This document shows, one piece after another, positions 35,829 to 56,451 of a DNA stretch of 57,963 bases. The stretch is from a virus: positions 1 to 57,963 of IMG/VR virus record IMGVR_UViG_3300033997_000554. One strand, written 5' to 3'. The notes under the pieces are model-generated. The model did not search any database. It was not told where the DNA came from and saw nothing but the letters and a program-made list of their open reading frames with translations. Position numbers and translations under genes: made by a program. Position 1 is the stretch's first letter, and each line of letters starts with the position of its first letter.

Positions 35829-37484
35829 ATGCGGGAAGCGGAAAAGGCGTTCACGGGCATGCTGCCCAGGGTTGAGCCGCACCTGTTGCCGACCGGTGCC
35901 AGCCAGGACGTGCTGAACGCCAGCCTGCAGCGCGGCTCGCTGGTGCCGTACCGGGCACCGGACAAGGTCGCTGACCTGGCCAAGGTCGGCACGAAGCTGG
36001 CGATCTACCGCTTCGGCCGTTCGATCGATGACGACTCGCGCTACTGGTTCCACTGGCTGAACGATACCGATGTGGCGCGCGGCGCCATTCCGGACGACGC
36101 CCAGGAGCGGACCTATTTCACCGAGGCCGGCCAGCCGCCGCGGGTGACGGATTCGACCATGGCCACGACCGACGGCCAGATGCCGTCCGCCTGGTATCGG
36201 CTGGGCATCCCGGCGCCGACGTCGCGGGCCACCGTGACGGTCGCTCTGCAGCCCGATCCTCCCTCGGGCCTGGAGCGCCAGTCGTGCCTGCTGGCGTATA
36301 CCTTCGTGTCGGCCTGGGGCGAGGAGGGCCCGCCCAACGAGGTGAGCGACCCGTTCAATGCCGCCACCAACGACACCCTGAACGTGATCAACATGGAGGG
36401 GCCGCCGGCCGGCGAATACAACATCACGTTGAAGCGGCTCTACATCTCCACCACCGACGCCACTGGCACGGCCGTGCTGCGCTTCTGGAAAGAGGTGCCG
36501 GCGGGCGCCGTGACCTTTTCCGACAAGGTCGACTTCACCGAGCTGGGCGAGGCGCTGCCCGAGCGCGCGCTGGTGCCGCCGCCGGCGGACCTGTTCGGCC
36601 TGATGGCGCACCCCGGCGGGTTCATGATCGGATTTTCTGGCAAGCGGGTGTACCGGTCGGAGGTGTTCAAGCCCTTCGGTTGGCCCTACTACTCGCCGGT
36701 CGCCGACGAGATCGTAGGCGGCGCCATCATGGGCCAGGCCACGGTCGTGTGCACCAAGGGCGACACCTATCTGGCGACCCAGGCGGATCCGGTCACCCTG
36801 ACACCGGTGCGCCTGGACGGCAACCAGCCGTGCGTCGCCAAGCGCACCATCAGGGCGTTCAAGGGCGGCGTTGTCTACGCCTCTCCCGATGGCCTGGTCA
36901 TGGTCGATCAGGCCGGCGGCGTGGGCGTGGTGACCGAGGAGCTGCTGACCCGGGCGCAGTGGCAGGCCTACCGGCCGGCCTCGATGCATGCCAGCGTGCA
37001 CGACAACCGCTACTTCTGCTGGTTCGACACCGGTGCCGAGCGCGGCGGCCTGATTTTCGACCTGACGCGCGGCGCCATGTCGCTGACCCGTACCGATGTG
37101 TATGCCACGGCTTCGTACTCGGACGGCCGGCGCGATGAGCTGTTCCTGGCGCTGCCTGATGGCAACGTGCACAAATGGGACGGAGGCGCGGTGCCGCTGG
37201 CCATGCGCCGGGTGAGCAAACGATTCATCCTCGAGCGCGCCCAGAACATAGGCGCCGCCCAGGTGGTGGCCTCGGCCTATCCGGTGACCTTCCGGCTGCG
37301 GGCCACGATCGAAACGTCCGGCGGGCCGCTGGATGTGGAGGTGCAGCACCAGGTCACGAGCGGCCGGCCGTTCCGGCTGCGCGGAAACTATCGCGCCCGC
37401 AGCTACGAGTTCACCGTGGAAGGCGCCGCGGCTATTTCCGAGGTGACCGTGGCGTCGGTCCTGGGCAACGTCACGGCGGTCTGA
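35829..37484 (+). CDS. tail/virion protein with beta-propeller-like repeats
   Basis: A 551-residue protein. N-terminus MREAEKAFTGMLPRVEPHLL, then blocks with regular Trp/Tyr and Gly spacing: FGRSIDDDSRYWFHWLNDTD, FVSAWGEEGPPNEVSDPF, FGLMAHPGGFMIGFSGKRVY and DGLVMVDQAGGVGVVTEELL. The repeated four-strand pattern suggests a propeller. Such large beta proteins follow the holins in related phages and form tail tube or spike parts. Exact role not established. Confidence 0.65.
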   Translation: MREAEKAFTGMLPRVEPHLLPTGASQDVLNASLQRGSLVPYRAPDKVADLAKVGTKLAIYRFGRSIDDDSRYWFHWLNDTDVARGAIPDDAQERTYFTEAGQPPRVTDSTMATTDGQMPSAWYRLGIPAPTSRATVTVALQPDPPSGLERQSCLLAYTFVSAWGEEGPPNEVSDPFNAATNDTLNVINMEGPPAGEYNITLKRLYISTTDATGTAVLRFWKEVPAGAVTFSDKVDFTELGEALPERALVPPPADLFGLMAHPGGFMIGFSGKRVYRSEVFKPFGWPYYSPVADEIVGGAIMGQATVVCTKGDTYLATQADPVTLTPVRLDGNQPCVAKRTIRAFKGGVVYASPDGLVMVDQAGGVGVVTEELLTRAQWQAYRPASMHASVHDNRYFCWFDTGAERGGLIFDLTRGAMSLTRTDVYATASYSDGRRDELFLALPDGNVHKWDGGAVPLAMRRVSKRFILERAQNIGAAQVVASAYPVTFRLRATIETSGGPLDVEVQHQVTSGRPFRLRGNYRARSYEFTVEGAAAISEVTVASVLGNVTAV

Positions 37485-40371: not shown

Positions 40372-41559
40372 ATGGGCTGCATGTCCACGGAAGTGAAACA
40401 GGATCCGGCCGTCGGCCGGGCCCAGGAAGCCAATGCCCAGATCGGCATGCGCGCCCAGGATCTTGCCGAGCGCAATTTCGAATGGAACCAGCAGCTGACG
40501 GAGCAGTTCGCGCCGATCTACCAGGGGCTGCTGAACAATGCGCTGGGCGAGGCCAACAAGAACGCGCAGCGCGGCGACGATCAATGGAATCAGTACAAGT
40601 CCGTATTCCAGCCGATCGAGAACAAGATGGCCGAGGAGGCCATGAACTACGACAGCCCGGAGGAGATCGCGCGACGCGAAGGCCTGGCCGCGGCGACCGT
40701 GGGCAGGCAGTTCGACAACACCCAGGCGCAGACCTCGCGCGAGATGGCTCGCATGGGCGTTTCGCCCACCAGCAGCTTGGGCAGCACCGCCATGACGGAT
40801 CAGGCCAATGCGCGGGCGCTGGCCACCGCGGGCGCGGTCAACAAGGAGCGCAACGACACCAAGCTGCTGGGCATGAGCCTGCGCGAGAACGCGGCGAAGT
40901 TCGGCCGGAACCAGACCGGCACCGGCATAGCGGCGTCGCAGGCGGCCCTGCAGGCGGGGAACTCCGCCACCGGTGTGATGGGGGCGCAGTCGGCCCAGGG
41001 CAATGCCGCGGGGACGGGGCAGGGGCTGCTGGGGACTGCAAGCGGTGCATTCAATTCCATGGGGCAAATGGGGCTCAACCAGATGCAGATGCAGCAGAAC
41101 GCGAACTCTGCCAGTCAGGCTGGCCTCGGTTCGCTGTTGGGCACTGGGCTGATGGCTGGCGCCATGGCGTTCTCGTCGAAGGAATTGAAAGAGGACGGGG
41201 AACCGCTGGACGACGACGAGGCACTGGCCGGCCTTACGAAAGTACCGGTAGAGCGGTGGAAATATCGCGCCGGCGTGGCGGATGGTGGGGAGCACGTCGG
41301 TCCCTACGCCGAGGACATGCACGCGCAATTTGGTGACGAGGTCGCCCCGGGCGGGGTTGGCCTGGACATGATCAGTGTGAGCGGGCAGCACCACGCCGCG
41401 ATTCGGGCGTTGGCGAAAAAGGTGGATCGACTGGAACGGCGACGTGCCAAGCCCGGCCTGGTGCCCGTTGCGGCGCCCGCGGAAGAAGGGGGCGGTGCAT
41501 TGCCGCCGGCGTTGTCGGGCGACTTGTCGGCCGGCCTGATTGGACTGGAGAGGATCTGA
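40372..41559 (+). CDS. internal virion protein with S74-like chaperone domain
   Basis: A 395-residue protein. I chose ATG 40372 after GAGGTGA. Residues 1-250 are glutamine/alanine-rich helix and low-complexity glycine/alanine (GTGIAASQAALQAGNSATGV), as in DNA-ejection proteins. Residues about 265-365 look like an intramolecular chaperone (peptidase S74) domain: AFSSKELKEDGEPL, KVPVERWKYRAGVADGG, EHVGPYAEDMHAQFGDEVAP, ISVSGQHHAAIRALAKKVDR. S74 domains normally fold and trim fibres; here one is fused to what looks like an internal protein. The two proteins after it are also of the internal type. Confidence 0.65.
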   Translation: MGCMSTEVKQDPAVGRAQEANAQIGMRAQDLAERNFEWNQQLTEQFAPIYQGLLNNALGEANKNAQRGDDQWNQYKSVFQPIENKMAEEAMNYDSPEEIARREGLAAATVGRQFDNTQAQTSREMARMGVSPTSSLGSTAMTDQANARALATAGAVNKERNDTKLLGMSLRENAAKFGRNQTGTGIAASQAALQAGNSATGVMGAQSAQGNAAGTGQGLLGTASGAFNSMGQMGLNQMQMQQNANSASQAGLGSLLGTGLMAGAMAFSSKELKEDGEPLDDDEALAGLTKVPVERWKYRAGVADGGEHVGPYAEDMHAQFGDEVAPGGVGLDMISVSGQHHAAIRALAKKVDRLERRRAKPGLVPVAAPAEEGGGALPPALSGDLSAGLIGLERI

Positions 41560-43340
41560 TGGCGATGAATGGAAGCTTTGCGGGTGGCCTGGCCGATGGC
41601 CTGCGCAATGGGATGGCAATCGCCCAGGCTTATGACGTGTCCAAGGATCGGGCGCGCGAACGTGAGGAGGCCGACCGGCAGAAGCGTGTGAACCGGGAGA
41701 TTGCCGCGGCGATGGGAGGAACCCGCGACCAACTGCAGGCACCTGCGGGGCTGGAGCCGGTGCAGGGACCGCAGGCGGTGGCTGCTGGGGACGCGATGGG
41801 AGGCGGGCCAGGCCTGCAGCCTGTCGCTACCAGCGCTCCGGTAGCGCCGGCCACGGCAACCGCCCAGTCGTTGGGGCTGGCCGATGTATCGACGGGCGGG
41901 GCGGGCTTGGGCGCTACCCAGGCCGGGCTGCCGAGTGCCGGGCAATCGGCCGCAATGGCGCAAAAAAAAAGTCCTTCGCCCGTTGATTACCTCGGGGCGG
42001 GTGATTTCGGAGAGGTCGCGGACGGACTGACGCGGGCATATCGGAAAGCCCTGGAGCTGGGAGAGCCAGGCCGAGCCATGGAACTGCTGGCAGATCGCGA
42101 GAAATACGTCGGCCAGCACCGAGAACAGGCCTTTGCTGCGGCGCAGGGACGCTACCAGCTGACCGGCGATCCGAACGCCTATGTCCCCTTCGTGAACCGC
42201 TTCATGCCGGGAGGCATCGAGGTGAAGGCGATCAATCGCCGTAGTGAACAGGCCGGAGGCGCGCCGGTGTACGACTTTGTCGGCGTGGACACCGTGACCG
42301 GCAAGCCGGTGCAGCAGCCTATCACCGAGAACATGTTGCAGACCTTCGTGCGCAGCATCAGCGACCCGAAGGCGCAGCAAGCGATGGTGGCGCAGCAGGC
42401 GAAGCTGCTTTTCGATGCCGAGCAGAAGCGCCGCGAGCAGGTGCTGGCCAGTCAGCTGCGCAAGGATGAGGAGGCGGCCAAGCCTCGCATTCTGGGGAAA
42501 GACCAGACGCTGTACACGCCCGACGGCCAGGGCGGCCTGCGCGTCGGCGCGCAGGGCAGCGAGGCCGGCAAGCCGAGGATGACGACCTCCGACAAGGATT
42601 TCGCCAACCACGTCATGCGCATTTTCAAGGTGGACAGCTTGGACGGGCTGGGCGATGACCAGCGCAAGTTGGTGAGCGGCATCATCGCCACCGGCGAGAA
42701 CATCAACCGCCTGAATGCCGGCACGCCAGCCGGCGAGGTACTGACGGCGGGGAACCTGGCGGCGCTGGCCCAGCAGGTGCAGGACGGCACCGCCGAAATC
42801 ACGCCTATCCGGCTGGGCGATCGACAGTTCGGCTTTGGTGTTGAGCACGAGGGCCAGCTGGTGCGCCTACCGGTGTCCGTCGTGCCCAAGGCGGTGCAGG
42901 AGCAAATCCGGGCGCGCTTGGTGGCAGCGCCTGCTCAGGGTGAAGGCCAGGCGGCGCCGGCCGCGGCCGCTCCGGCCGATGCATCTCGGCCAGCACAGCC
43001 GGTGCCGAGTGTGGCCAAGCCAGCGCCGGCCGGCCGCGCCGCGCCTGCTGCCGCCAACCCCCGAGCGGCTGCGGCCGACAGCGCAGAGGGGGCTCAGCTT
43101 GATACCGCCCGCGCCGAGCTGCGCCAGGCACAAGCCCTCGTGCGCCAATTGCGCTCCAGCCCGCCCGGATTGAAAGCCGGCCAGGAGGCGCGTGCGAGGC
43201 ACGCTGCGCAGCTGCAGCAGGCCGAGCGCGATGTCGAGCTGGCCCGCGTGGCCGAGCAGGCCGCGGCCGAACGCTGGGCCCGTGCCACCGAGGGATCCGA
43301 ATTCACGCGCGCCGCCATGGGCCGCACCACCGCAGAATAG
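41559..43340 (+). CDS. internal/ejection virion protein
   Basis: A 593-residue protein. ATG overlaps the previous stop. The N-terminus (FAGGLADGLRNGMAIAQAYD then VSKDRAREREEADRQKRVNR) is a charged helix, followed by low-complexity Gln/Ala/Gly, a helical region (about 145-270), and a C-terminal coiled coil of AELRQAQALVRQLRSSPPGL and AQLQQAERDVELARVAEQAA. These features fit inner-core proteins ejected with DNA. A catalytic motif is not evident. Confidence 0.7.
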   Translation: MAMNGSFAGGLADGLRNGMAIAQAYDVSKDRAREREEADRQKRVNREIAAAMGGTRDQLQAPAGLEPVQGPQAVAAGDAMGGGPGLQPVATSAPVAPATATAQSLGLADVSTGGAGLGATQAGLPSAGQSAAMAQKKSPSPVDYLGAGDFGEVADGLTRAYRKALELGEPGRAMELLADREKYVGQHREQAFAAAQGRYQLTGDPNAYVPFVNRFMPGGIEVKAINRRSEQAGGAPVYDFVGVDTVTGKPVQQPITENMLQTFVRSISDPKAQQAMVAQQAKLLFDAEQKRREQVLASQLRKDEEAAKPRILGKDQTLYTPDGQGGLRVGAQGSEAGKPRMTTSDKDFANHVMRIFKVDSLDGLGDDQRKLVSGIIATGENINRLNAGTPAGEVLTAGNLAALAQQVQDGTAEITPIRLGDRQFGFGVEHEGQLVRLPVSVVPKAVQEQIRARLVAAPAQGEGQAAPAAAAPADASRPAQPVPSVAKPAPAGRAAPAAANPRAAAADSAEGAQLDTARAELRQAQALVRQLRSSPPGLKAGQEARARHAAQLQQAERDVELARVAEQAAAERWARATEGSEFTRAAMGRTTAE

Positions 43341-43349
43341 AGGGAATAG

Positions 43350-46300
43350 ATGGAAAACTTTGAAAATCCCGCTGACGGGATCGAGTTCAAAGACAACGTG
43401 GCAGCGCGCCGCGATCAGGTCCGCGCCGACCTGGATGTCCAGTTCTCGGACGCCGGTGCGCCGGCGGGCGCCACCGGCAAGCCCTTGCCGTTCACTTTCC
43501 GCGTAGCCGACTACACGCGGGCGCAGCAGGATGGCGGCGGCATTGAGTTCGTCGACTTCCCCAAGACGCTCGCCGGCGGCGCGATCAAGGGCGCCGGCAG
43601 TGCCGTGCGCGGCGTGGGGAAGGTTGCCGAAGGCCTGGGCCGTGTCGGCGTGACGGCGGTGAACCAGGCCTTTGATGCTGGCCTGGAAATCCCGACCAAC
43701 CCCCTGGAGGGGGCGGCGGATGCAACGCATCGCCTGGGCGAACGCGTGCTGGATTCGCGCACGGCAGAGGCGAAGCGCCGTGAGGCCGACTCGCAGCCGG
43801 GCGGCGACCTGGACAAGCCAGAAACCTGGACGCTGGGCCGCGACCCGTCAGCATCGGGCTTGGCCCTGCAGGCGCTGAACGCCGGCGGTTCCAGCGCGCT
43901 GCCTGTCCTCGCGTCGGTGGCTGCCGGCCCCTTGGGGGTCGGGGCCCGCATGGCCGCAGGCGCTGCTGCTGGCGGCGCCATGGGCGGCGGCAATGCGATC
44001 GAGCAGGCGCGAGAAACGATCGACGGCCTGGACGACCAGCAACTGGCCGCTGCATCGTCCGCATATCGAGATCTGATCGCGCAGGGCGTGACGCCGGAGG
44101 AAGCGCGCGCCCGGGTGCGCGCCGACGCCGAGAATGCCGCATTCGTGCGCACGCTGCCTGTGTCCGCCGTCGGCGGCGCGGCGACCGGCCGGATCCTGTC
44201 GCCGGCGGGCCGCGTGCTTGGCGATCGCGGCGTGGTGGCGCAGACCCTGGGCAAGGCCGCCTTGGCCGGCACCGAGGAAGCCGTCCAGGAGGTCGGCGAG
44301 GGCTATGCCACCCAGAAGGGTATCAACGCCGGCGCGGGCATGGCGCTGGACCCGATGGCCGGGTCTTTCGGCAACGCGGCGCTGGGCTTCGTCGCAGGCA
44401 TGGGGCCGGGCGCTGTGCATGGCGCAACCGAAGGCGTGCGCCACCGCGGCGTGCCGTCGGCGCCGAGCCTCGAGGCGGGCGACGTGATGCACGCCAGCGG
44501 CAAGCCGTTCGTGACGGCCAGCGCCGCGCGCCAGCGTGCCGAGGAGCTGGGGGAGTGGGCGCAGGTGCTGCGCTACGAAAACGGGTTCATCGTGCGGCCT
44601 GGGGCGGCGGTCGACCAGCAGGCCGCTGGCGCCGCGCCGACGGCAGCTGAGGGCAGCGGCGGCACCGAGGGCGCGCCGGCTGCCACGGACACGGCGAATG
44701 CAGACGGCCAGGCCGCAGGCTTCGCGCCGCGCCAGCAGGTCTACCTGCGGCAGAACGGCCGCGAGCTGCCCGTCGAGTTCCTGGGCGTGGAGAGCAACGC
44801 CGCGACCGCGCGCGCCGGCGGTGAACAGCTGGCCCGAATCCGGACGGCCGACGGCCGCGGCCGCTTCGTGCGGCTGTCTGAACTGTTCGCCGAGCCCATG
44901 CCGGGCAACTCGCTGCGCCAGGCCATGGACGGGCCGGCGGCGCTCGAGGGGCCGGAGGCCTTTCCCGTGCTGGACGGGCCGATCCAGCGCGCGGCATTGC
45001 CGGCGCCGGACGGGTATGCCGCTGGCGAGGGCTTCGTCGCCCGCGACTCGTGGCGCATGCCCGCCAACGCGCCGCGCGGGATCCGCAACAACAACCCCGG
45101 CAACATCCAGAGGGGCGCCGGCTTTCAAGGTGAAGTCGAGGGCAATGATCCGCGCTTTGCCACCTTCGCCACGCCGGAGGATGGTATCCGCGCGATCGGG
45201 ATGAACCTGCTGACCTACCAGCGCCAGCACGGTCTGGACACCGTGCGGGGAATCTTGAACCGGTGGGCGCCGCCGTCTGAAAACGACACCGGCGCATATG
45301 TGGGCCAGGTGGCGCGCGCGCTGGGCGTGGAACCCAACCAGCAGCTGGATCTGAGCGACCCGGCGACGCTGACCGGGTTGACCGCCGCCATCATCCGCCA
45401 CGAGAACGCCATGCAGCCTTACAACGCGGCGCAGCTGGAGGCAGCGGTAAGCGCCGCGCTGTCCGGTGCGCCGGTGCGGCGCGCGTTGCCGGCCCCGGTC
45501 TATCAGGTCGACGGCGAGGGCGTGGCGGCCACCGCCGGCCAGCGTGACGCCGAGCTGGCGCGCCAGGCGGCTATGGGCATGACGCCCGATGTCGCGGCCG
45601 CCGGCGAGCGCCACCCCGGCGCGGCAACCGACGCCGCAGCCCACGAGGCGGCCACGTCGCCGACGAACGACCGCCCCGAGCCGACCGACGCCCAGAAGGA
45701 TGCCGGCAACTACAAGGTCGGGCGCACGCGCATCGCCGGCCTGGATATCTCGATCGAGAATCCCGAGGGGTCGGAGCGCCGCGGCACGTCCCCTGACGGC
45801 ACCAGCTGGGCCAACCGGATGGCGGGCCACTATGGTTACATCCGTCGGACTCAGGGCGCCGACGGCGACCAGGTGGACGTATTCGTTCGCCCTGGCACCA
45901 CGCCCGATTTCGCCGGCCCGGTGTTCGTCATTGACCAGGTCGATCCTGCTGGCGGCCGGTTCGATGAAGCGAAGGTGATGCTGGGCTACGACACCCGCGA
46001 GGACGCCGAGCGCGCCTACCGCGACAGCTACACGCCGGACTGGCGTGGCATGGGCAAGATCACCCAGATGGACGTGCCCACGTTCAAGCGCTGGATCGAC
46101 GAAGGCGACACGACGAAGCCCGCGTCGGAATCCGGCCTGGGTACGCTGGTGGCCGAGCCCGACATTACCGCCAAGGGGGGCCGCCCCTTCCTGACCCGTG
46201 GCGCGGCCCAGCGCGCCGCCACGCTGCACGGGAATGCCGACGTCGAACCGGTGGATGGCGGCTTTGTGGCGCGGCCGCGCACCGGCCAACCCCCGCGCGA

Positions 46301-49300
46301 GGCGCCGGCACCTTCTGCGGCCGACTTTGCGCGCGGCGCGCGGCGCGACTTCCTGCAGATGGTGCGCCAGGCCGGAGGCATCCGCCCCGAGCTGGCAGCC
46401 GATATCTACGGCGATCGCGCCCACCTGGCCAACCGGCGGGCGCCCGGCCTGTTCCGCCAGGGTGGCATGGACGCCGACCGCCTGGTGGAAGCCATGCAGC
46501 AGGCCGGTTACCTGCCTATAGAGGGCGACACCGTCGACTTGGCGGGCACGGCTATGGATCGCGTGCGCGAGGCGCTGGAGGGCGAGGCGGTCTATTCGCT
46601 CGAGCAGATGGACGAGGCGGCGCGCCGCGCGTATGCTGAGCGCCAGGCCGAACGGTTCAGCGATGCCAAGGATAAAAACAAGCTGGCCGAGGATCTTTTT
46701 GGCGCGATCGACGCCATGCCGGCCGACACGACCATGCAGGAGCTGGCGGCGCAATTCGATGCCGCGGTCTACCTGAGCGAGCAAGGAATTACCGATGTCC
46801 CTACCCAAGAAGCCATCATCGAGCGAGCCTCAATCCAAGCCGACGGAGACGCCGGAGCATTCGAGCAAGCCGTTAAGTCCCAAGCAGCGGCGCTTGGTCG
46901 GCGGGACGATGGCGATCCTCGGCGCCCTTCGCAACAGCCAGGAGCGGGAAGCGATGGAGCAGGCGCAGGAGGTGATCGCCAAGGCGGCCCGCAAGGACTG
47001 ACCCTCGAAAGCCCGACGCCTGACGGGCTCCGGGCGGCAGCCAGCCAGCAGGCCGCCCAGCAGCAACAAGCCACCATCGAGGCCCGAGAGGCCGACCAGC
47101 GCGGCGCAGCTGATGCCGCGCGCGACGATTTTGTCCTGACCGGCAGCGACCGGGCGGCCGACCAAGCCGCAGCGCGGGGCCAGCAGGAACTGGCACCGGC
47201 CCCGGAAGCCCCCGCCGCGGCCAGCGAGCCGACCGCCCGTCCTGGTGGTCGCATCGAAGATTTCGGCGAGACGCTGCAGGGCGCCCGCAAACACTACGCC
47301 GAGCAGTACGCCGAGCGCATGCGCCAGGCCGAGGCGTTGCCGATCCGCGATCACGCCCTGGCCGAGACGTGGCCGGAGCCGAATTACGGCAAGCTCCTCG
47401 AGGACGGCGCCGACCCGTTCCTGGTGGCGCTCGTGCACGCCAGCCGCGACGAGATTCCCAGCAAGCCGCGCAAGGGATGGAAGCTCAAGGGCTGGGTCGA
47501 CCAGGTGCAGCGGCTGCGTGAATTCTCCGGCGAGCTGCTGGCGGGCAGGATCAGGGGCGCCGACGTGCGCGCCATCCTAGATAAGTCGCAGGATCTGCGC
47601 GACGTCTACGGGCGGGCCCAACTGTACGAGGCCGTGGGTCATGATCGATCCCTGCGCGGCGTGTCCCTGCGGTCGGCAGACTACAGCGTTTTCGCCGGCG
47701 AGAGGTTCGACCCGCCGCGCCGGATCTGGACCGTAGAGCGCAAGGCGTCCACCGGCATGGGCAACTGGCCGCAGATCGCCGCCAAGGGCGACAGCGCCGC
47801 GGCAGCCATCGCCGATTTCAAACGCGAGATGGACAGGCAGGCCGGCGAACCGGCGCCGGCGCGTGAGGTGCGTTTCGATATCTACTCGCGCCCGCGCATG
47901 CCTGGTTTCTACATCGGCAAGAAGGTCGGTCGGACCTACATCGACTTGCAGCACTTCGATGACGTCAAGGCCGCCCGCGCCTACCTGGCCGAGAACAAGG
48001 AGCAGCTGACCCAGCGGCTGGACGAGCTGAAGGACGTCCCGGCGCACCGGCGCGAGACGAACGCGCCGCGGGTTGGCGTGGACCACCGGGATGGCGGTGA
48101 CGTGACGCCGGCGCAGTTCAGCGATGCCTTCGGCTTTCGTGGGGTGCAGTTCGGCAATTATGTCGAGGGCGGCCGCCGCCAGGCTGATCTGAACGAAGCC
48201 TACAATGCCCTGATGGATCTGGCTGGCGTCATCGGCGTGCCGGCGCGTGCGCTGTCGCTCAATGGCGAGCTGGGCCTGGCCTTCGGCGCGCGCGGCGCCG
48301 GCGGGAAGGATGCCCCCATGGCGCACTACGAGCCCGGCCAGGTCGTTATCAACCTGACGAAGAAGCGCGGCGCGGGGTCGCTCGCGCATGAATGGTGGCA
48401 CGGCCTGGACAATTATTTCTCGCGCCGTGGCGGCACGTCGGCCGGGTACGCCTCAGAAGCAGGCGCTGCCACCACCGGCATCCGGCCCGCGATGGCCGAG
48501 GCCTTCGGGGCGCTCAAGCAGACGATCGGCCTGATCGGCATGCGAGAGCGGTCGCGCAAGCTGGATGAGCGCAAGGCGAAAGACTACTGGTCCACCGGCC
48601 GCGAGCTGTCCGCGCGGGCGTTCGAGAGCTATGTGATCGCCAAGCTGGCCGACCAGGGCGCCGCCAACGACTACCTGGCCAACGTGGTGCCGGAGAAGGC
48701 CTTCGGCGACGAGCTGGCCTACCCGTACCCGACCGCCGCCGAGATCCCGCAGATTCGGGCGGCGTTCGATCGCTTTTTTCAGACGGTGGATCAGGTGCCC
48801 GGCGAGGATGGCCGGATTGCGCTCGAGAGTCGGGGCGACGGCGGGCAGGGTGTCGACCCTGCCGAAGCGCGGCGCCTGGCGGCCGACTTCATGGGCAAGC
48901 TGCCGGGCGCAGCCGCCCTACGCGTGTCGGTTGTGGAGCGCGTCGACCAGATTCCCGAGGGGGCGAAACCGTCCGTGATGGCCGAGGGAGCCTACTACCC
49001 GGCGGGCGATGGCGGCCGGATCTACCTGGTGGCTGAAAACGTGCCCACGGCGGAGCGCCTGCAGCAGGTGCTGGCGCATGAGGTTGTCGGCCACTTCGGC
49101 GTCGAGGCGCTTCTGGGCGATCGCTTCCGCGACGTGCTGGCCGACGTGCGCCGTCTGGCTCGCGCGCCGGATGGCGCGCACATCCCGCGCGACGCGGGCC
49201 CGGACCATCCGCACTACGCCACCTTCGAGGCTGTGACGGCGCGCTATCCGGACTATTCGGCCGCCAACCGCGCCCGCGAAGTCCTGGCGCGCATGGCGGA

Positions 49301-52300
49301 GCAGGGCAAGCGCCCGGTGTTCCTGGAACGTCTCTACGGCATGATCCGCGCCGCGCTGCGGCGGCTGGGCCTGAACCTGCAGTTGAACAACGCCGACATC
49401 CGCAAGATGGTCGTCGACGCCGGCCGGTTCTTGCAGCGTGCGCCGGCGGCGCGAGTGAGCGCCGGCATGCAGGAAGCCGCCGCCTCGATGGCGGCCAGCC
49501 GCGGGGCAGACACCTCCGGCGCCGCCGTGACCGTGCTGACCGGCGAGGAGCTGGGCGCGGCCGAGCTGGGCGCCAAGGAGCTGCGCGATGCCGCGCGCAC
49601 CTGGGCGGCGGAGAACCTGAAAGGGAAAAATTTCGTGAACCGCGCGACCGGTTGGGCGGTGCAGGTCAGCCAACGCGGCATCAAGGAATCGCTGTCACGC
49701 AGCGCCCGCATCAGCAAGGTCCAGTCCATGGTGGCATTGCCGGGCCTGATCGAACAGGCCATCCTGGGCCATTCGGAAGCCAACCGCAACAAGCAGCGTG
49801 ATCCCTTTACCAGCCAGGTGCACACGCTGTATGCGCCGGTGGAGATCGCCGGCCAGGACTACCTGGCGCGTCTGGTCGTGAAGGAAAACGCCAACGGTCA
49901 CCTTTTCTACGACCACGATCTTTCCGAGGTGGTGGAAGCAAAACGCCCCGACAACACGTCTGCCGTAAGCATTCCCGCTTCCAAAGCGGGCGCAGATCAG
50001 ACGCCGTCAGGGCGAGGTTTTACGGTAGAAGATATCGCGGCGATCGTCAACAGGGAGGGACGGGCCGGCTGGGTGTTCGATCCTGGCGCGCTCGAGTCGC
50101 GCCGCCGCTACGAGAAAGCCCCGCCAGCCGCGGGGCTTCGTACTTCTGAGCTCGTGGAATCGCGCGCGGCCGCGGCGACCGCAGGCACCCCGCCAGCGCA
50201 GCCCGGCGCGGCCCGCGAGCCCAAGCGCGGCGCCAAGATCGAGCGCCCGGGCGAGACGCTGTCCGACATCGAGCGGCGCCAACGCAACAAATTCTTGGGC
50301 AAGATCGGCGCGTGGGCGGAGCAGGAACCCATCAAGGCGCGCCTGGCCAAGGCGTCCGATCGCTGGCAGGCGAAGCTGGTGCAGGGCATTTTCGATCAGT
50401 TCGCGCCGCTCAAGGGGATCAGCGCCACCGCCTACATGCAGGCGCGCCTATCCAAGGGCGCCGACGGCGCCGCCGAATACCTGGTGCGGCACGGCGCGGT
50501 CAAGCTGCAGGACGGCGCGCTGGACACTGCCGGCGGCAAGGGGCTGGCGGAAATCCTGGCCGGCTTGAACGGCGAACACGACCATTTCATGGCCTGGATC
50601 GCCGCCAACCGGGCCGAGCGCCTGGCTGCCGAATGGCAGGTGCGGTTCGACAACGGCGTGACCGAGCGCTTTGCGAACGAGGCCGCCGCGCGCACCGAGG
50701 CGGCGAAGTGGCCCGGCGCCAAGGCCGAGCCCGCGTCGCGCGAACGGCTTTTCACGCCCGACGATATCGAGGCCGGCAAGCGCCTGGCTCAGGGCAAGAT
50801 GGCCGACGGCCGCGATCGCGCCACCGTCTACCGCGAAGCCCTGGGCCAGTTCAACGAGCTGCAGCGCTCCGTCCTGGACGTGGCGCAGGAGGCCGGCCTG
50901 GTCGACCCCAGCTCGCGCAAGCTGTGGGAGAGCGAGTTCTATGTGCCGTTCTATCGGGTGATGGAGGACGACGCTACCGGCACCATGGGGCCCGGTCAGA
51001 TCGGCGGCCTGGTGGGCCAGCACGCATACAAGCGCCTCAAGGGCGGCACGGACAAGCTGGGCGACCTGGTCGCCAACACGGTGTCGAACTGGTCGCATCT
51101 GCTGTCCGCGAGCATGAAGAACCTGGCCGCGCAGGGCGCGCTGCAGGAGGCGGAAAAGCTGGGTGTCGCCACGCGGGTGCGCCAGGCCGAGCGGGGCAGC
51201 GTGCGCGCCATGTTCGCCGGCCAGGAACGCCACTACCAGGTATCCGATCCGCTGGTGCTGAACGCGCTGACGTCGCTGCATTACGTCGGCTCCAATGACC
51301 CATTCACCAAGGCGGCGCGAAAGTTCAAGCACGCGCTGACGGTGGGGGTGACCATCAGCCCGACCTTCCGCGTGCGCAACTTGCTGCGCGACACGATCCA
51401 GGCCATGGCGATCGACAGCAACCTGTCCACCAATCCGCTGCGGAGCCTGGTGGAAGGGTGGAAGGCAACCGGCGCCGAGAGCGACACCTGGCGCCGGCTC
51501 ATGGCTGGGGGCGGGGCGGTGCGCTTCGGATCCTTCAACGACGGCAACGCCCGCAACGTGAAGCGCCTGGTCGACGAGCTGGGCGCTCATCCCGACGACG
51601 TCATCACGTCGCCGGCCGGCATGGGCCGCGCGCTGCGCAAGGCCTTCGACTGGTATCAGGAAACTGGCGACCGATCCGAGACGATCAACCGCGCGGCGAT
51701 CTACCAGCAGGCACGCAAGGCCGGCCGCAGCCATCTGGAGGCCAGCTATGCCGCCCGCGACCTGATGGACTTCACCGCCGGCGGCACGTTCTCCGCCGTG
51801 CGGATGCTGTCGCAGGTGGTGCCATTCTTCAACGCACGCCTGCAGGGCATGTACAAGCTGGGCCGCGGCGCGGCCGCGGATCCTGCCCGGTTCGCCGCGG
51901 TAACGGGCGCCGTGGCGATGGCGTCGGCGCTGCTGTACCTGGGCATGAAGGACGACGACGACTACAAACAGCTGCCCGACTGGGCGCGCAATTCGTTCTG
52001 GATCACGAAGTTGCCGGGCACGAACCACTTCGTCTACATCCCGAAGCCGTTTGAGATCGGCGCCCTGGGCAGTGTGGTCGAGCGCGGCACCGAGCTGGCC
52101 TTTGGCGGGGACGACTTCCGCCTGCGCGACTTCGGCCGGACGGTGGGCGCCATCCTGAGCGAGCAGCTGTCGATGAACCCGGTCCCGCAGCTGGTCAAGC
52201 CGGCGATGGAAGCGGCGTTCAACTACGACTCCTTCCGCGAGCGCGACATCGACAGCGTCGGTCAGCAGCGCCTGCCGGCCGGCGATCGCTTCACGGCGTC

Positions 52301-52838
52301 GACCTCGGCCGGGGCGGTGGCGCTGGGCAAGGCGCTGGGCCTGTCGCCGCAGCGCCTGGAACACCTGGTGCGCGGCTACTTCGGCTGGCTGGGAACGCAG
52401 GCGCTGAACGTGTCCGATCACCTGGCCAGGCCGCTGTCGGGCCTGCCCGAGAATCCGCGCCGCGACCTGAGCCGCCTGGATAACTGGTTCGTAGTCGGCG
52501 ATTTCGTGAAGGAATCCGACCCGCGCTCGAGCAAGTACATCCAGCGGTTCTATGACGAGCAGCGCGAACTCAACCAGGTCTACGCCGCCTTTTCACAGGC
52601 GCGCGAGCTGGGCGACCTCGAGCGCGCCCGCGAGCTGGCCGGCGACGACCAGATGCGCCTGCGCGCACTGTTCAAGGCTGCCGACAGCCAGCTGCGGGAC
52701 GTCAATCTCAAGATCAAGGCGCTCGAGCGCGCGAGCATCCCGGCCGACGAGAAGCGCGCGCAGCTGGACCTGCTGTACCGCGCCCGTAACCGCCTGGCCG
52801 CGCTGGCCGACCAGCACGCCCGCAGCGCCCGTCCCTGA
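43350..52838 (+). CDS. giant polyvalent ejected protein (3162 residues)
   Basis: A 3162-residue protein with many domains, in order: alanine/glycine-rich possible membrane-inserting segments (about 180-215, 265-285 and 345-360); a repeated GKPF-x-T-type module (about 380-410, again at 940-975); a lysozyme-like domain starting RGIRNNNPGNIQRG (about 575-690); a pyrophosphatase-like domain starting VGRTRIAGLDISIENP (about 787-920); LPD5/LPD1-type domains with zincin motif HEWWH (H1680 to H1684); a second zincin-like motif HEVVGH (about 1910); a PBECR/LPD3-like nuclease fold (about 2095-2200, SRxxIKESLS and FYDHDLSE); and an LPD38-like C-terminal region (about 2660 onward). It is probably injected with the DNA and modifies or protects in the host cell. 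Proteins of this class are known as large polyvalent proteins. Confidence 0.88.
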   Translation: MENFENPADGIEFKDNVAARRDQVRADLDVQFSDAGAPAGATGKPLPFTFRVADYTRAQQDGGGIEFVDFPKTLAGGAIKGAGSAVRGVGKVAEGLGRVGVTAVNQAFDAGLEIPTNPLEGAADATHRLGERVLDSRTAEAKRREADSQPGGDLDKPETWTLGRDPSASGLALQALNAGGSSALPVLASVAAGPLGVGARMAAGAAAGGAMGGGNAIEQARETIDGLDDQQLAAASSAYRDLIAQGVTPEEARARVRADAENAAFVRTLPVSAVGGAATGRILSPAGRVLGDRGVVAQTLGKAALAGTEEAVQEVGEGYATQKGINAGAGMALDPMAGSFGNAALGFVAGMGPGAVHGATEGVRHRGVPSAPSLEAGDVMHASGKPFVTASAARQRAEELGEWAQVLRYENGFIVRPGAAVDQQAAGAAPTAAEGSGGTEGAPAATDTANADGQAAGFAPRQQVYLRQNGRELPVEFLGVESNAATARAGGEQLARIRTADGRGRFVRLSELFAEPMPGNSLRQAMDGPAALEGPEAFPVLDGPIQRAALPAPDGYAAGEGFVARDSWRMPANAPRGIRNNNPGNIQRGAGFQGEVEGNDPRFATFATPEDGIRAIGMNLLTYQRQHGLDTVRGILNRWAPPSENDTGAYVGQVARALGVEPNQQLDLSDPATLTGLTAAIIRHENAMQPYNAAQLEAAVSAALSGAPVRRALPAPVYQVDGEGVAATAGQRDAELARQAAMGMTPDVAAAGERHPGAATDAAAHEAATSPTNDRPEPTDAQKDAGNYKVGRTRIAGLDISIENPEGSERRGTSPDGTSWANRMAGHYGYIRRTQGADGDQVDVFVRPGTTPDFAGPVFVIDQVDPAGGRFDEAKVMLGYDTREDAERAYRDSYTPDWRGMGKITQMDVPTFKRWIDEGDTTKPASESGLGTLVAEPDITAKGGRPFLTRGAAQRAATLHGNADVEPVDGGFVARPRTGQPPREAPAPSAADFARGARRDFLQMVRQAGGIRPELAADIYGDRAHLANRRAPGLFRQGGMDADRLVEAMQQAGYLPIEGDTVDLAGTAMDRVREALEGEAVYSLEQMDEAARRAYAERQAERFSDAKDKNKLAEDLFGAIDAMPADTTMQELAAQFDAAVYLSEQGITDVPTQEAIIERASIQADGDAGAFEQAVKSQAAALGRRDDGDPRRPSQQPGAGSDGAGAGGDRQGGPQGLTLESPTPDGLRAAASQQAAQQQQATIEAREADQRGAADAARDDFVLTGSDRAADQAAARGQQELAPAPEAPAAASEPTARPGGRIEDFGETLQGARKHYAEQYAERMRQAEALPIRDHALAETWPEPNYGKLLEDGADPFLVALVHASRDEIPSKPRKGWKLKGWVDQVQRLREFSGELLAGRIRGADVRAILDKSQDLRDVYGRAQLYEAVGHDRSLRGVSLRSADYSVFAGERFDPPRRIWTVERKASTGMGNWPQIAAKGDSAAAAIADFKREMDRQAGEPAPAREVRFDIYSRPRMPGFYIGKKVGRTYIDLQHFDDVKAARAYLAENKEQLTQRLDELKDVPAHRRETNAPRVGVDHRDGGDVTPAQFSDAFGFRGVQFGNYVEGGRRQADLNEAYNALMDLAGVIGVPARALSLNGELGLAFGARGAGGKDAPMAHYEPGQVVINLTKKRGAGSLAHEWWHGLDNYFSRRGGTSAGYASEAGAATTGIRPAMAEAFGALKQTIGLIGMRERSRKLDERKAKDYWSTGRELSARAFESYVIAKLADQGAANDYLANVVPEKAFGDELAYPYPTAAEIPQIRAAFDRFFQTVDQVPGEDGRIALESRGDGGQGVDPAEARRLAADFMGKLPGAAALRVSVVERVDQIPEGAKPSVMAEGAYYPAGDGGRIYLVAENVPTAERLQQVLAHEVVGHFGVEALLGDRFRDVLADVRRLARAPDGAHIPRDAGPDHPHYATFEAVTARYPDYSAANRAREVLARMAEQGKRPVFLERLYGMIRAALRRLGLNLQLNNADIRKMVVDAGRFLQRAPAARVSAGMQEAAASMAASRGADTSGAAVTVLTGEELGAAELGAKELRDAARTWAAENLKGKNFVNRATGWAVQVSQRGIKESLSRSARISKVQSMVALPGLIEQAILGHSEANRNKQRDPFTSQVHTLYAPVEIAGQDYLARLVVKENANGHLFYDHDLSEVVEAKRPDNTSAVSIPASKAGADQTPSGRGFTVEDIAAIVNREGRAGWVFDPGALESRRRYEKAPPAAGLRTSELVESRAAAATAGTPPAQPGAAREPKRGAKIERPGETLSDIERRQRNKFLGKIGAWAEQEPIKARLAKASDRWQAKLVQGIFDQFAPLKGISATAYMQARLSKGADGAAEYLVRHGAVKLQDGALDTAGGKGLAEILAGLNGEHDHFMAWIAANRAERLAAEWQVRFDNGVTERFANEAAARTEAAKWPGAKAEPASRERLFTPDDIEAGKRLAQGKMADGRDRATVYREALGQFNELQRSVLDVAQEAGLVDPSSRKLWESEFYVPFYRVMEDDATGTMGPGQIGGLVGQHAYKRLKGGTDKLGDLVANTVSNWSHLLSASMKNLAAQGALQEAEKLGVATRVRQAERGSVRAMFAGQERHYQVSDPLVLNALTSLHYVGSNDPFTKAARKFKHALTVGVTISPTFRVRNLLRDTIQAMAIDSNLSTNPLRSLVEGWKATGAESDTWRRLMAGGGAVRFGSFNDGNARNVKRLVDELGAHPDDVITSPAGMGRALRKAFDWYQETGDRSETINRAAIYQQARKAGRSHLEASYAARDLMDFTAGGTFSAVRMLSQVVPFFNARLQGMYKLGRGAAADPARFAAVTGAVAMASALLYLGMKDDDDYKQLPDWARNSFWITKLPGTNHFVYIPKPFEIGALGSVVERGTELAFGGDDFRLRDFGRTVGAILSEQLSMNPVPQLVKPAMEAAFNYDSFRERDIDSVGQQRLPAGDRFTASTSAGAVALGKALGLSPQRLEHLVRGYFGWLGTQALNVSDHLARPLSGLPENPRRDLSRLDNWFVVGDFVKESDPRSSKYIQRFYDEQRELNQVYAAFSQARELGDLERARELAGDDQMRLRALFKAADSQLRDVNLKIKALERASIPADEKRAQLDLLYRARNRLAALADQHARSARP
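46795..47001 (+). CDS. possible nested gene inside the giant protein gene
   Basis: An alternative-frame ORF of 68 residues with AAGGA eight bases before ATG. The product, MSLPKKPSSSEPQSKPTETP then LSPKQRRLVGGTMAILGALR and REAMEQAQEVIAKAARKD, has natural-looking composition and two amphipathic helices. The giant protein in the overlapped stretch (about residues 1149-1217) is instead rich in Gly/Arg/Asp/Gln and seems unstructured (GAGSDGAGAGGDRQGGPQ). So this frame, not the giant frame, may be under selection here. Existence as an expressed protein is not shown. Confidence 0.45.
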   Translation: MSLPKKPSSSEPQSKPTETPEHSSKPLSPKQRRLVGGTMAILGALRNSQEREAMEQAQEVIAKAARKD

Positions 52839-52862: not shown

Positions 52863-52886
52863 GCGCGCCCTCCGGCGCGCTTTTTT
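52863..52886 (+). terminator. terminator after the giant protein gene
   Basis: GCGCGCC-CTCC-GGCGCGC (52863-52880) is a perfect 7-bp stem followed by TTTTTT. It separates the ejection-protein genes from the lysis genes. The downstream GAGGAG is the ribosome-binding site of the endolysin gene. Confidence 0.88.
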
Positions 52887-52898
52887 CGAGGAGCCATC

Positions 52899-53309
52899 AT
52901 GTTCGCATTCAGCCTTTCGGCGCGCAGCCTGCAGCGCCTGGACGGGGTACACCCCCGACTTGTCGAAATCGTCAAACTGGCGATCCAACGCACCGCGGTC
53001 GATTTCACGGTAGTCGAGGGTCTGCGCTCGCCCGAACGCCAGCGCGAGCTAGTCGCCCAAGGCGCCAGCCAGACGCAGAACAGCCTGCACCTGCGCCAGC
53101 AGGACGGCTATGGCCACGCCGTCGACCTGGCGCCGCTGGTCGGTGGCGCGATTCCGTGGAGCGACTGGGAGCAATTCCGCCGCCTGGCCGACGTGGTGAA
53201 GGCCTGCGCGGCCGAGCAGGGCACGCCGGTGGAGTGGGGCGGGGACTGGAAGTCGCTCAAGGACGGTCCTCACTTTCAGCTGCCGCGCGGCTGGGCGGCA
53301 GCAGCATGA
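52899..53309 (+). CDS. endolysin, L-alanyl-D-glutamate peptidase type (M15)
   Basis: A 136-residue peptidase of the VanY/M15C family. Motifs: DFTVVEGLRSPERQRELVAQ, SLHLRQQDGYGHAVDLAPL with zinc ligands H73 and D76 (H64 may be the other), and DGPHFQLP with H125. It cuts between L-Ala and D-Glu in peptidoglycan stem peptides during host lysis. It has GAGGAG upstream and no signal peptide, so it needs a holin for export. Genes for Rz and Rz1 follow directly. Confidence 0.9.
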   Translation: MFAFSLSARSLQRLDGVHPRLVEIVKLAIQRTAVDFTVVEGLRSPERQRELVAQGASQTQNSLHLRQQDGYGHAVDLAPLVGGAIPWSDWEQFRRLADVVKACAAEQGTPVEWGGDWKSLKDGPHFQLPRGWAAAA

Positions 53310-53945: not shown

Positions 53946-54755
53946 ATGATTGAAAAAAAAGAGCTTGTTCCCCCTCTTAAATGGGCGGGGGGGAAGCGAT
54001 GGTTTGTGACCAACTATCGGCATCTAATCCCAGACTCCTACGATGGTTATATAGAGCCATTTGTGGGATCGGGGGCTCTTTTCTTCACGCTGCGTCCGAA
54101 ACAGGCAATTCTCGCTGATGTAAATCCGGAGTTGATTAATCTTTATTCGGTAATACGATCGGATCCGTATGGCATGCAGCGCAAATTGCTTCGCCATCAA
54201 AGGCTGCACTCAAAAGAGTATTTTTATTATATGAGAAAATCTGTCCCTCGCTCTGAGCTGGGGCGGGCGGCCAGATTTCTTTATCTAAATAGAACGTGCT
54301 GGAACGGGCTGTACCGGGTCAATGCTCAGGGAAAATTCAACGTTCCAATTGGGACGAAGACGTCTGTTGTGATGGATACGGATGACTTTGAAGCATTGGG
54401 GGGGGCGCTGAATGGCGTGTCTTTGCTGTGTTCGGACTTCGAGGCTGTTGTTGATCGGGCGCAAAAAAACGATTTTGTATTCGTTGACCCGCCCTATACC
54501 GTAGCTCACAACTTTAACGGCTTTGTGAAATATAACGAGGTGTTGTTTTCATGGGGTGACCAAGAAAGGTTGATGCAGGCGGTGAGTCGGGCGGTGCGTC
54601 GTGGGGCAAAAGTGTTAGTCACCAATGCTGCACACGATTCTGTCCGAGCGCTTTATGCAGGCTTCGAGCAAATGTATGTTTCCCGCAGTGGAGTCATTGC
54701 GGGTAAGGCAAGTGCACGAGGTAATTTCCAAGAGCTTGTGATTCGTTGCTACTAA
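53946..54755 (+). CDS. D12-class (Dam-type) adenine-N6 DNA methyltransferase
   Basis: A 269-residue protein. SAM-binding and catalytic motifs of the D12 family are complete: PPLKWAGGKRWFV (10-22), IEPFVGSGALFF (36-47), FLYLNRTCWNGLYRVN (111-126) and FVDPPY with DPPY at 181-184. It should methylate adenine in a short palindrome such as GATC, though specificity is not readable here. It lies in an AT-rich cluster with two following genes, five bases and then a four-base overlap apart, so they form one operon. A defence, anti-restriction or regulation role is inferred. Confidence 0.88.
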   Translation: MIEKKELVPPLKWAGGKRWFVTNYRHLIPDSYDGYIEPFVGSGALFFTLRPKQAILADVNPELINLYSVIRSDPYGMQRKLLRHQRLHSKEYFYYMRKSVPRSELGRAARFLYLNRTCWNGLYRVNAQGKFNVPIGTKTSVVMDTDDFEALGGALNGVSLLCSDFEAVVDRAQKNDFVFVDPPYTVAHNFNGFVKYNEVLFSWGDQERLMQAVSRAVRRGAKVLVTNAAHDSVRALYAGFEQMYVSRSGVIAGKASARGNFQELVIRCY

Positions 54756-54760
54756 AAAAA

Positions 54761-55306
54761 ATGGACACTTGGGACGAAATAAAATCTAAGATGGCACGAA
54801 AACTGCAGACACCCGGGTGGTCCGCAGCAGGGGAGGTTGTTTTCACTCTTGTTGTGTCGAATCTCTCCTTGGGAATTATGCTGTTCATCGCATTTTTAAT
54901 CGATCGGGATGCCGAGATTTCAATGTGCGGCATATGGGAGCGGTTGGCAAGTAGCATAAATCCCACTGAAGTTTTGATATATATATTGGCGGTAATTACT
55001 CCGACTTTGTGGTATATGGCTGTCAATGTTCGCGCAAGAAAATACTTAAAAGGGTTTACCTGGATCCTGTTCTTGCAATGCGCTCTTATATTGGGGAGTG
55101 CTATTGTTTTTGCTCTCGCAAAAACTGGAATGACGTTGAATCAGCGAGTATTGATTCCGTTTGCTTGGGGAAGCTTTTTGTTTGCGATTGCGATTTGGTA
55201 CGGCGTCCTTGTATTTCAGAAAAGTGTTAAAGAGGGGCCGCATGTTGATGCAAGTGATATTGCGGCTAGAGGCGGCAAGGCAATGGCGCAGGAGCTGGAT
55301 TCATGA
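54761..55306 (+). CDS. four-helix membrane protein in the accessory cluster
   Basis: A 181-residue protein starting MDTWDEIKSKMARKLQT. Four hydrophobic segments: about residues 25-47 (EVVFTLVVSNLSLGIMLFIA), 68-85 (TEVLIYILAVITPTLWYMA), 97-117 (FTWILFLQCALILGSAIVFA) and 128-147 (LIPFAWGSFLFAIAIWYGVL). A short cytosolic tail ends with DIAARGGKAMAQELDS. AT-rich as its neighbours. No SD is seen before the ATG, so translation may depend on coupling to the methylase gene (an upstream TTG at 54746 is an alternative start). Function unknown; a membrane effector or anchor is possible. Confidence 0.7.
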   Translation: MDTWDEIKSKMARKLQTPGWSAAGEVVFTLVVSNLSLGIMLFIAFLIDRDAEISMCGIWERLASSINPTEVLIYILAVITPTLWYMAVNVRARKYLKGFTWILFLQCALILGSAIVFALAKTGMTLNQRVLIPFAWGSFLFAIAIWYGVLVFQKSVKEGPHVDASDIAARGGKAMAQELDS

Positions 55307-56451
55307 AGAATAGAGCGGAGTTAGAGGCTTTTCGAGCCATTCCAGTCGAACAGCCTATAGGTGTTTTTTTTCTCGCCAGTATTCCGGCTCGAGATTTGGT
55401 GGAAATATCTTCTGCAGATTTGCGACACATGGAGCAGGAACTCGATCGCTACGTGGGTATTCAACGGGAGTTGAAGGCGGATCGGGTCGCTGAGATTGGA
55501 AAATTTGTTAATTCGGTTGATGCAACCTTCCCTACTTCCGTAGTGTTGGCGGTAAAAAGTTCGTGCGCTACCTTCGATGAGAAAAGAGGCACGCTAACCC
55601 TGCATGAAGGGATTGACGAAAGTTCGGGTGAGCCTATTCCGCTAGGAAAGGTAGCCAATATCCTGGATGGACAGCATCGCGTCGAAGGCCTGAAAGCGCT
55701 GGTTGAGCACGAGACATTCGATGTGCCAGTTTCAATATTCGTTGATGCTGATATTGCCGACCAGGCGTATATATTCGCAACCGTTAATTTGGCACAGACT
55801 AAGGTCAATAAAAGCTTGGTCTATGATTTATTGGATTATGCTAAGGCTCGAAGTCCTCAGCGCAGCGCGCATGAGATTGTTGTTGCATTAGACGGCGCTC
55901 AGAAAAGTCCGTTGTATCAGAAGATTAAGCGCTTGGGTACTGCTACACCTGGTCGCCAGCCTGGAGTCGAGACCCTCGCCCAAGCCACTGTGGTTAACGC
56001 GATTCTGCCCTTAATCTCCAGAGACCCAGAGACAGATCGTTTTGAGTTGGCGAAAGGAAAAAAGCTGTCGTTGAAGGATGTTCGATATGAAAGCACTCCT
56101 TTGCGTCATTTGTGGATAAAAGAACGAGATACTGATATTGCGAGAATATTGTTTGAATATTTTGCCGCTGTGAAGGAGCAGTGGCCCGAGGCATGGGATT
56201 CTAAAGAGAGGGGCGCAATGTTGGCGCGAACGAACGGGTTTCGTGCATTTTCTAAATTTTTTAAATTGGTTTATCTTCGCGAGCGTCCGGTGGCGGATTT
56301 GGAGAATCCGATCGTTTCGAGATCTAGGTACTCCAAGTACTTTTCCAGGGTCAAGCTGGAGAGTGAGTCGTTTAATTCTATGTATTTTCTTCCTGGCACG
56401 AGCGGTGAGACTTCCCTATTCAACCAACTCCGGAGAGATACCGGCGTCTAG
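55303..56451 (+). CDS. DGQHR-domain (DndB-like) protein
   Basis: A 382-residue protein with the ParB-like signature NILDGQHRVEGL (D122-R126) and the following PVSIFVDADIADQAYIFATV then NLAQTKVNKSL, typical of DGQHR/DndB proteins. In Dnd and DISARM-like systems DndB-type proteins control DNA modification or link to nucleases. The rest is helical with no second catalytic motif. It overlaps the membrane-protein gene by four bases. The three-gene set with a Dam-type methylase has no Dnd partners here, so the DGQHR protein works in another context. Confidence 0.8.
   Translation: MKNRAELEAFRAIPVEQPIGVFFLASIPARDLVEISSADLRHMEQELDRYVGIQRELKADRVAEIGKFVNSVDATFPTSVVLAVKSSCATFDEKRGTLTLHEGIDESSGEPIPLGKVANILDGQHRVEGLKALVEHETFDVPVSIFVDADIADQAYIFATVNLAQTKVNKSLVYDLLDYAKARSPQRSAHEIVVALDGAQKSPLYQKIKRLGTATPGRQPGVETLAQATVVNAILPLISRDPETDRFELAKGKKLSLKDVRYESTPLRHLWIKERDTDIARILFEYFAAVKEQWPEAWDSKERGAMLARTNGFRAFSKFFKLVYLRERPVADLENPIVSRSRYSKYFSRVKLESESFNSMYFLPGTSGETSLFNQLRRDTGV

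Follow-up and report, generated by a model that had tools for sequence, protein, structure and literature searches.

Organization of the late operon and the giant gene

The DNA analyzed here (the window) is the whole of the IMG/VR virus record IMGVR_UViG_3300033997_000554, 57,963 bases in length, and the source phage is a prophage of Achromobacter-type bacteria. The nearest annotated record is Achromobacter phage CF418P1, an inducible temperate phage found as a prophage of A. xylosoxidans (PMC10457797), with long stretches of DNA ∼92 to 95% identical to the window. According to the gene annotation of the window, the late genes for terminase, portal, major head, tail fiber, internal virion protein, and virion structural protein lie 5' of a giant gene, which is the final gene of the late structural operon, and an Rz gene is found downstream together with the endolysin. 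Frame translation gave an ATG start, 3162 open codons, and a single terminal stop, confirming the reading frame that had been called in the first-pass annotation. A family search with the 593-aa protein encoded directly upstream gave no match, and neither this protein nor the upstream 395-aa protein showed homology to N4 gp51/gp52. The features of the locus are collected in Table 1.

Table 1. Features of the giant gene and its surroundings (window positions; aa, residues of the giant protein)
Feature	Position	Strand	Basis or remark
Integrase	147-1361		
Portal (separate gene)	24953-27235		4e-152
Internal virion protein (phrog_511), upstream late gene	35829..37484	+	1.5e-114
Virion structural protein (phrog_8003)	40372-41559		C-terminal Peptidase_S74 intramolecular chaperone
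Upstream gene without family match (593 aa)	41559..43340	+	9 bp 5' of giant gene
Giant polyvalent ejection-type protein (putative), whole ORF	43350..52838	+	ATG, 3162 aa; PHROG and Pfam domains
N-terminal domain, aa 66-380	43545..44489	+	Homologous to N4 virion RNA polymerase aa 107-445
Lysozyme-fold muralytic domain (predicted), Enc34/PHA02564 type, aa 569-712	45054..45485	+	Catalytic Glu685
InPase domain, aa 780-916	45687..46097	+	Pfam 3e-53; metal-binding D838, D840, D843
Cassette LPD5-HEWWH zincin-LPD1	47185..48875	+	Missing from CF418P1; within a wider segment replaced by RadC-like JAB in L018
LPD5, aa 1449-1593	47694..48128	+	Pfam 1e-40
Zincin 1, aa 1594-1735	48129..48554	+	H1680, E1681, H1684, E1759; invariant D1687, H1659; MATCAP fold match
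LPD1, aa 1738-1814	48561..48791	+	Pfam 6e-20
Zincin 2, aa 1840-2030	48867..49439	+	HEVVGH 1910-1915, E1977
Slot B, variable cargo position between zincin 2 and C-terminal domain	49440..50372	+	Comparison of relatives
LPD3, aa 2076-2187 (the "nuclease" of the first-pass annotation)	49575..49910	+	Pfam 1e-27
Conserved C-terminal domain, aa 2342-3150	50373..52799	+	In phages and prophages; no PLSDB plasmid match
Conserved hydrophobic helix, aa 2847-2866	51888..51947	+	Hydropathy across relatives
LPD38, aa 2869-3029	51954..52436	+	Pfam 4e-32
Terminator-like hairpin, then T run	52863..52880	+	Directly 3' of giant gene
Endolysin, first gene 3' of giant gene	52899..53309	+	Gene annotation

N-terminal, lysozyme, and InPase domains

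A profile of the N-terminal region from 36 relatives matched residues 107 to 445 of the N4 virion RNA polymerase (vRNAP; PDB 9pnr) at 8e-17, the N-terminal HMM scored 73.8 bits against N4 gp50, and the PHROG of N4-type vRNAP was matched by 26 of the 36 relatives. On the giant protein, the PHROG virion RNA polymerase match covers residues 188 to 500, the N-terminal part only, and the Pfam scan contained no RNA polymerase domain. Since the region is rich in Ala and Gly, composition controls were run, in which the real N4 segment scored 80 to 85 bits and none of 600 shuffles, including shuffles within 20-residue blocks, exceeded 5.4 bits. Judged by these profile matches, the N-terminus of the giant protein is homologous to an ejected protein, the N4 vRNAP. 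A single-sequence similarity to T7 gp14 (E 0.013) was dropped in favor of this stronger match. The same region had been described at first pass as membrane inserting; no 19-residue window in residues 1 to 560 rises above a Kyte-Doolittle mean of 1.5, so a transmembrane region was discarded, and what survives of that claim is the homology to the N-terminal domain of N4 vRNAP, which is described as lipid binding.

The lysozyme domain matched a PHROG endolysin family at 5e-60 and PDB 7q47 at 1e-25. We take the latter entry to be the Enc34 endolysin. The Enc34 endolysin is a muralytic enzyme of lysozyme fold with Glu131 as the catalytic residue (PMC8943055), and Glu131 aligns with E685 of the giant protein, which is kept in all 15 relatives having this domain. 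The InPase domain retains all three aspartates listed in Table 1 and is nearest to the domain found at the end of the Pa193 portal; the deposited Pa193 portal (PDB 9b41) includes the InPase in its sequence, with only residues 94 to 528 built, and therefore provides no InPase structure. Both the lysozyme-like and the pyrophosphatase-like domains of the first-pass annotation were thus borne out.

Some PHROG matches of the giant protein are labeled tail or head (tape measure, 2e-27; minor head protein) and the CF418P1 homologue is annotated as a putative portal, as would be expected if the protein were a structural or tail component, for example a tape measure or portal, instead of an ejected cargo carrier. 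The tail- and head-labeled matches, however, cover only the lysozyme or InPase segment, a separate portal gene is present in the window, and the cargo turnover described below is not expected of a structural protein, all of which makes a structural role very unlikely.

Zincins and the LPD5-HEWWH-LPD1 cassette

The protein carries HEWWH at residues 1680 to 1684 and HEVVGH in the second zincin, the same two motifs that had been noticed at first pass. Shuffled proteins of equal composition contain on average 0.04 HExxH and 0.04 HExxxH motifs. In an alignment of the LPD5-to-zincin-2 stretch from 28 relatives, H1680, E1681, H1684, D1687, H1659, and E1759 of zincin 1 are invariant, as are H1910, E1911, H1915, and E1977 of zincin 2. 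It is possible that E1759 and E1977 act as the third ligands of zincins 1 and 2, respectively. A His before and an Asp after HExxH, as well as the HExxxH variant, have both been described for polyvalent MPTases (PMC5512222). The LPD domains and LPD38 proposed earlier were also recovered by Pfam, and every Pfam match on the protein, InPase included, exceeded the cut-off by a wide margin.

An AlphaFold model of the LPD5-zincin-LPD1-zincin stretch (pLDDT 73) was compared with known folds using Foldseek, and the sole credible family was the MATCAP metallopeptidase (probability 0.99, E 0.02), a match which lends modest support to the zincin fold. A search of solved structures with zincin 2 together with LPD3 gave no useful match. 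With both motifs complete, it is plausible that the two zincins are proteases with putative cleavage activity.

The HEWWH zincin is absent in CF418P1 and is dispensable: CF418P1 lacks window positions 47185 to 48875, with flanks that are 92% and 95% identical, and another relative (L018) has a RadC-like domain in place of the zincin-1 block. LPD1 lies 22 to 57 residues ahead of zincin 2 in 35 of 37 cases, a spacing which implies that the LPD5-zincin 1-LPD1 block has a single docking site. On these alignments, the LPD5-HEWWH-LPD1 block is a cassette.

Constant frame and cargo slots

Searches with the C-terminal domain returned at least 590 viral and 131 genome loci, with members in phages of Vibrio, Bacillus, and Pelagibacter and no match among the 72,556 plasmid records of PLSDB. 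Its conserved helix has a median hydropathy of 1.70 over 122 relatives, the next region reaching 0.83. Compared by hhalign with C2 of N4 (N4 residues 2376 to 3500), using profiles of 11 vRNAPs and ∼120 relatives, the domain gave only 0.4%, and homology to C2 was dropped; solved structures provided no useful match.

Among 130 distinct full-length relatives, which were chosen by C-terminal-domain similarity with near-duplicates included so that the counts are not independent samples, HMMs detected the N4-type N-terminal domain in 66, InPase, zincin 1, and LPD1 in 38 each, LPD5 in 32, LPD3 in 20, and the lysozyme in 15. In 100 of the 130, zincin 2 precedes the C-terminal domain (79 HExxxH and 20 HExxH), and it is not indispensable given that it went undetected in the other 30, 17 of which retain an HExxH-type motif no more than 700 aa upstream. 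The domain order marks the C-terminal domain, usually with this zincin before it, as a constant frame, an arrangement described here for the first time.

Zincin 2 and the C-terminal domain are separated by a stretch of bimodal length, with 59 to 108 aa in 40 relatives, 144 aa in one, and 214 to 513 aa in 59; the variable position in between, slot B, is empty in 40 and filled in 59. Pfam searches on 48 filled slots identified ART-PolyVal (13), MuF_C (11), LPD3 (8), and phosphoribosyltransferase (7) and more rarely LPD37 (3), PBECR3 (2), and PBECR1 (2). All slots were then classified with our own HMMs, shared linker matches being cleaned by hand, which gave 40 empty slots, 13 with phosphoribosyltransferase, 12 with LPD3, 9 with ART, 9 with MuF, and 6 with other domains, the rest being rarer or double; the label LPD3+PRT in the close relatives of the window denotes LPD3 plus a common linker. 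At times two cargo domains stand in tandem in slot B, as LPD3+ART, MuF+ART, or MuF+LPD3 (L129, L146, L099, and L113). Slot A, which in the window holds the lysozyme, InPase, and the LPD5-HEWWH zincin-LPD1 block, contains InPase, methylase, helicase, RadC, ddrB-ParB, ART, and other domains in relatives. A constant delivery part with an interchangeable domain, a feature of polymorphic toxins, is present in this family.

Cargo turnover

In a C-terminal-domain phylogeny built with FastTree for 100 tips, a quick tree with some long branches, slot-B content changed at least 44 times, compared to a mean of 56.6 after shuffling, and the zincin-1 block 24 times (shuffled mean, 30.0), while InPase showed 15 changes (29.3) and the lysozyme a single one (13.4). 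C-terminal-domain identity of 90% or more links 68 pairs of relatives, and 38 of these have different contents in slot B. Two Aeromonas relatives (L162 and L163) are 92% identical in DNA up to the end of zincin 2, have unrelated slots, MuF in one and phosphoribosyltransferase in the other, and are again 91% identical from there to the end. Comparably clean DNA swaps were observed in the parts after slot A (L048/L075 and L044/L048), and L017 has a phosphoribosyltransferase in place of the LPD3 of the window. The giant gene of one close relative (L010, IMGVR_UViG_2718218011_000003) is disrupted and spread across several frames, and intact copies occur in its neighbors.

LPD3 and the nuclease reading

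A PBECR-type nuclease that could act as an anti-host or anti-competitor toxin, and would then need immunity, had been placed at residues 2095 to 2200 in the first-pass annotation. Pfam identifies LPD3 at this position, with no PBECR match, and the LPD3 profile compared with domains taken from relatives gave 5.6% against MuF_C and 0.5% against PBECR1. The AlphaFold model of LPD3 (pLDDT 86) consists of helices followed by four strands, an outline that is compatible with a BECR core. Searched against the PDB, this model found no nuclease or RNase, the best weak matches being NTF2-like, and among viral models it matched essentially just LPD3-bearing and other polyvalent proteins. Moreover, where many LPD3 proteins have the candidate catalytic His of a GVKHT motif, the protein of the window has Glu (GIKES). 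The nuclease as originally stated is therefore rejected. LPD3 nevertheless occupies the slot that in relatives holds BECR nucleases (MuF_C, PBECR1, and PBECR3), ADP-ribosyltransferases, and phosphoribosyltransferases, so its designation as an effector by position survives.

No slot-specific immunity gene was seen next to slot B in the relatives compared. The same endolysin ORF lies downstream whether slot B contains LPD3 or a phosphoribosyltransferase, and the Aeromonas relatives share one 67-aa downstream ORF regardless of whether the slot is empty or filled with MuF_C or phosphoribosyltransferase, which speaks against a matching immunity gene. On balance, we consider a PBECR-type toxin with its own immunity gene at this position unlikely. 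Checked segment by segment for domains and structure, the earlier assignments held for the lysozyme, InPase, zincins, and LPDs and failed for the PBECR-type nuclease as stated.

Comparison with known systems

Phage-type polyvalent proteins are a class known since 2017, and the giant protein belongs there. It shares with the proteins described by Iyer et al. 2017 (PMC5512222) the lysozyme, InPase, LPD1, LPD3, LPD5, LPD38, and zincin MPTase domains and the late-gene context, and also both zincin types, HExxxH and the form with a His before and an Asp three residues after HExxH. Disparate predicted activities in one polypeptide, a late-gene location, and a zincin with a downstream Glu are all found here. 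What distinguishes the present family from that description (PMC5512222) is the constant zincin-to-C-terminal-domain frame, the two countable cargo slots, and an N-terminus tied to N4 vRNAP.

The N4 vRNAP is expelled from the capsid and consists of a lipid-binding N-terminal domain, the polymerase, a zincin-bearing C1, and a large C2 (PMC12633501). The N-terminal domain, the order of N-terminal domain, payload, zincin, and large C-terminal domain, and the late operon are common to N4 gp50 (PMC12633501) and the giant protein, whereas the latter lacks an RNA polymerase, has lysozyme, InPase, and LPD domains as cargo, and contains a C-terminal domain that is not detectably homologous. Zincin 2 and the N4 zincin align over 27 columns around the motif with a probability of 81%; given that the zincins are alike only there and the C-terminal domains are not alike, a frame shared beyond the N-terminus is for now an analogy.

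The CF418P1 homologue (WNO49116.1) is 97% identical over residues 1834 to 3162 and has the same neighbors and the same LPD3 in slot B but is 2684 aa long and lacks the LPD5-HEWWH zincin-LPD1 cassette. In GenBank this homologue (L001, 8822-16876) is named "putative portal"; the true portal lies elsewhere (24953-27235 in the window). Another relative, the giant protein of Stx phages (Traversvirus) such as gp51 of P27, shares the LPD5-zincin-LPD1-zincin stretch with 33% identity (residues 1284 to 1985) and is elsewhere unaligned, save for a very weak C-terminal similarity (21%). Like the MuF polymorphic toxins of temperate phages (PMC5576092), the giant protein is phage borne and has an exchanged effector domain on a constant delivery part, but its variable part is internal rather than C-terminal, there is no N-terminal MuF, and no slot-specific immunity ORF was found; 89% of MuF toxin genes precede a small ORF (PMC5576092).

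Proposed delivery and processing

The giant protein is probably a packaged phage-type polyvalent protein that is ejected with the genome, with a constant carrier, modular cargo, and processing by zincin 2. Delivery with the genome had already been suggested at first pass and is well supported by the domain set, the late-operon position, the N-terminal homology to an ejected protein, and the published descriptions of the class (PMC5512222); the intact motifs and the exchange of cassettes are likewise read directly from the DNA. From these features we infer presence in the virion, ejection, cleavage, and roles of LPD3, LPD5, LPD1, and InPase in the host. The delivery frame would be made up of the N4-vRNAP-like N-terminal domain and, at the other end, the large C-terminal domain with its one conserved hydrophobic helix, and the lysozyme domain would help the ejection apparatus through the peptidoglycan. 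The HExxxH zincin (zincin 2) may then cut the chain during or after delivery, freeing the cargo on both sides, that is, the contents of slot A and the LPD3 of slot B, which would act early in the host.

The N4 vRNAP is packaged unprocessed despite its zincin (PMC5512222), so the presence of a zincin need not mean self-cleavage. The protein may instead be packaged and ejected uncut, with the zincins acting as effectors that cut host proteins, such as defense or envelope factors, or as structural parts for packaging. Plasmid ArdC/TraC1, like the N4 vRNAP, is delivered unprocessed with a zincin, and the zincin region of N4 is required for encapsidation (PMC5512222). The HEWWH zincin, being a removable cargo block, suits an effector better than a processing enzyme, and the nearest solved fold is that of MATCAP, a carboxypeptidase whose substrate is another protein. 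In most relatives, on the other hand, zincin 2 stays beside slot B and the C-terminal domain, which is what a part serving in processing or structure should do. We regard delivery of an uncut chain as a real possibility, short of probable.

Processing by zincin 2 being the reading that we prefer, a broader proposal would be that a general protein for one-shot delivery is common to podovirus-like temperate phages, in which a constant carrier of N4-vRNAP-like N-terminal domain, zincin, and large C-terminal domain with a hydrophobic helix has two cargo sockets whose contents turn over far faster than the carrier, the N4 vRNAP being a version whose cargo is an RNA polymerase. We judge the chances of this generalization to be evenly balanced. 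The socket directly behind the zincin would, as part of the same proposal and with the arguments for and against it of similar weight, receive one or two effectors (ADP-ribosyltransferase, BECR nuclease, phosphoribosyltransferase, LPD3, or LPD37). With near-identical phage pairs differing in one cassette, the injection and cutting predicted for polyvalent proteins in 2017 can now be tested. The slot behind the zincin also offers a frame for finding effectors, its occupants being candidate host-takeover or counter-defense enzymes. If the frame does deliver varied cargo across the Gram-negative envelope, this bears on the passage of podovirus ejection proteins, several thousand residues long, through the tail and also on the role of the large C-terminal domains.

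Other features of the window

At its very end, the window encodes a SRAP (HMCES/YedK-type) protein on the minus strand (57271-57963; 3e-43). No tRNA was found in window positions 1 to 57963, and a tRNA-Val is annotated in CF418P1. Between the lysis genes and the right end, positions 53946 to 56451 encode a D12-class adenine methyltransferase (8e-47), a 186-aa protein, and a 382-aa DndB/DpdB-like protein (Pfam DndB, 5e-12; PADLOC DpdB, 7e-25). This segment is possibly a defense or DNA-modification island, lacking other Dnd/Dpd genes, and CF418P1 carries different genes at this position.
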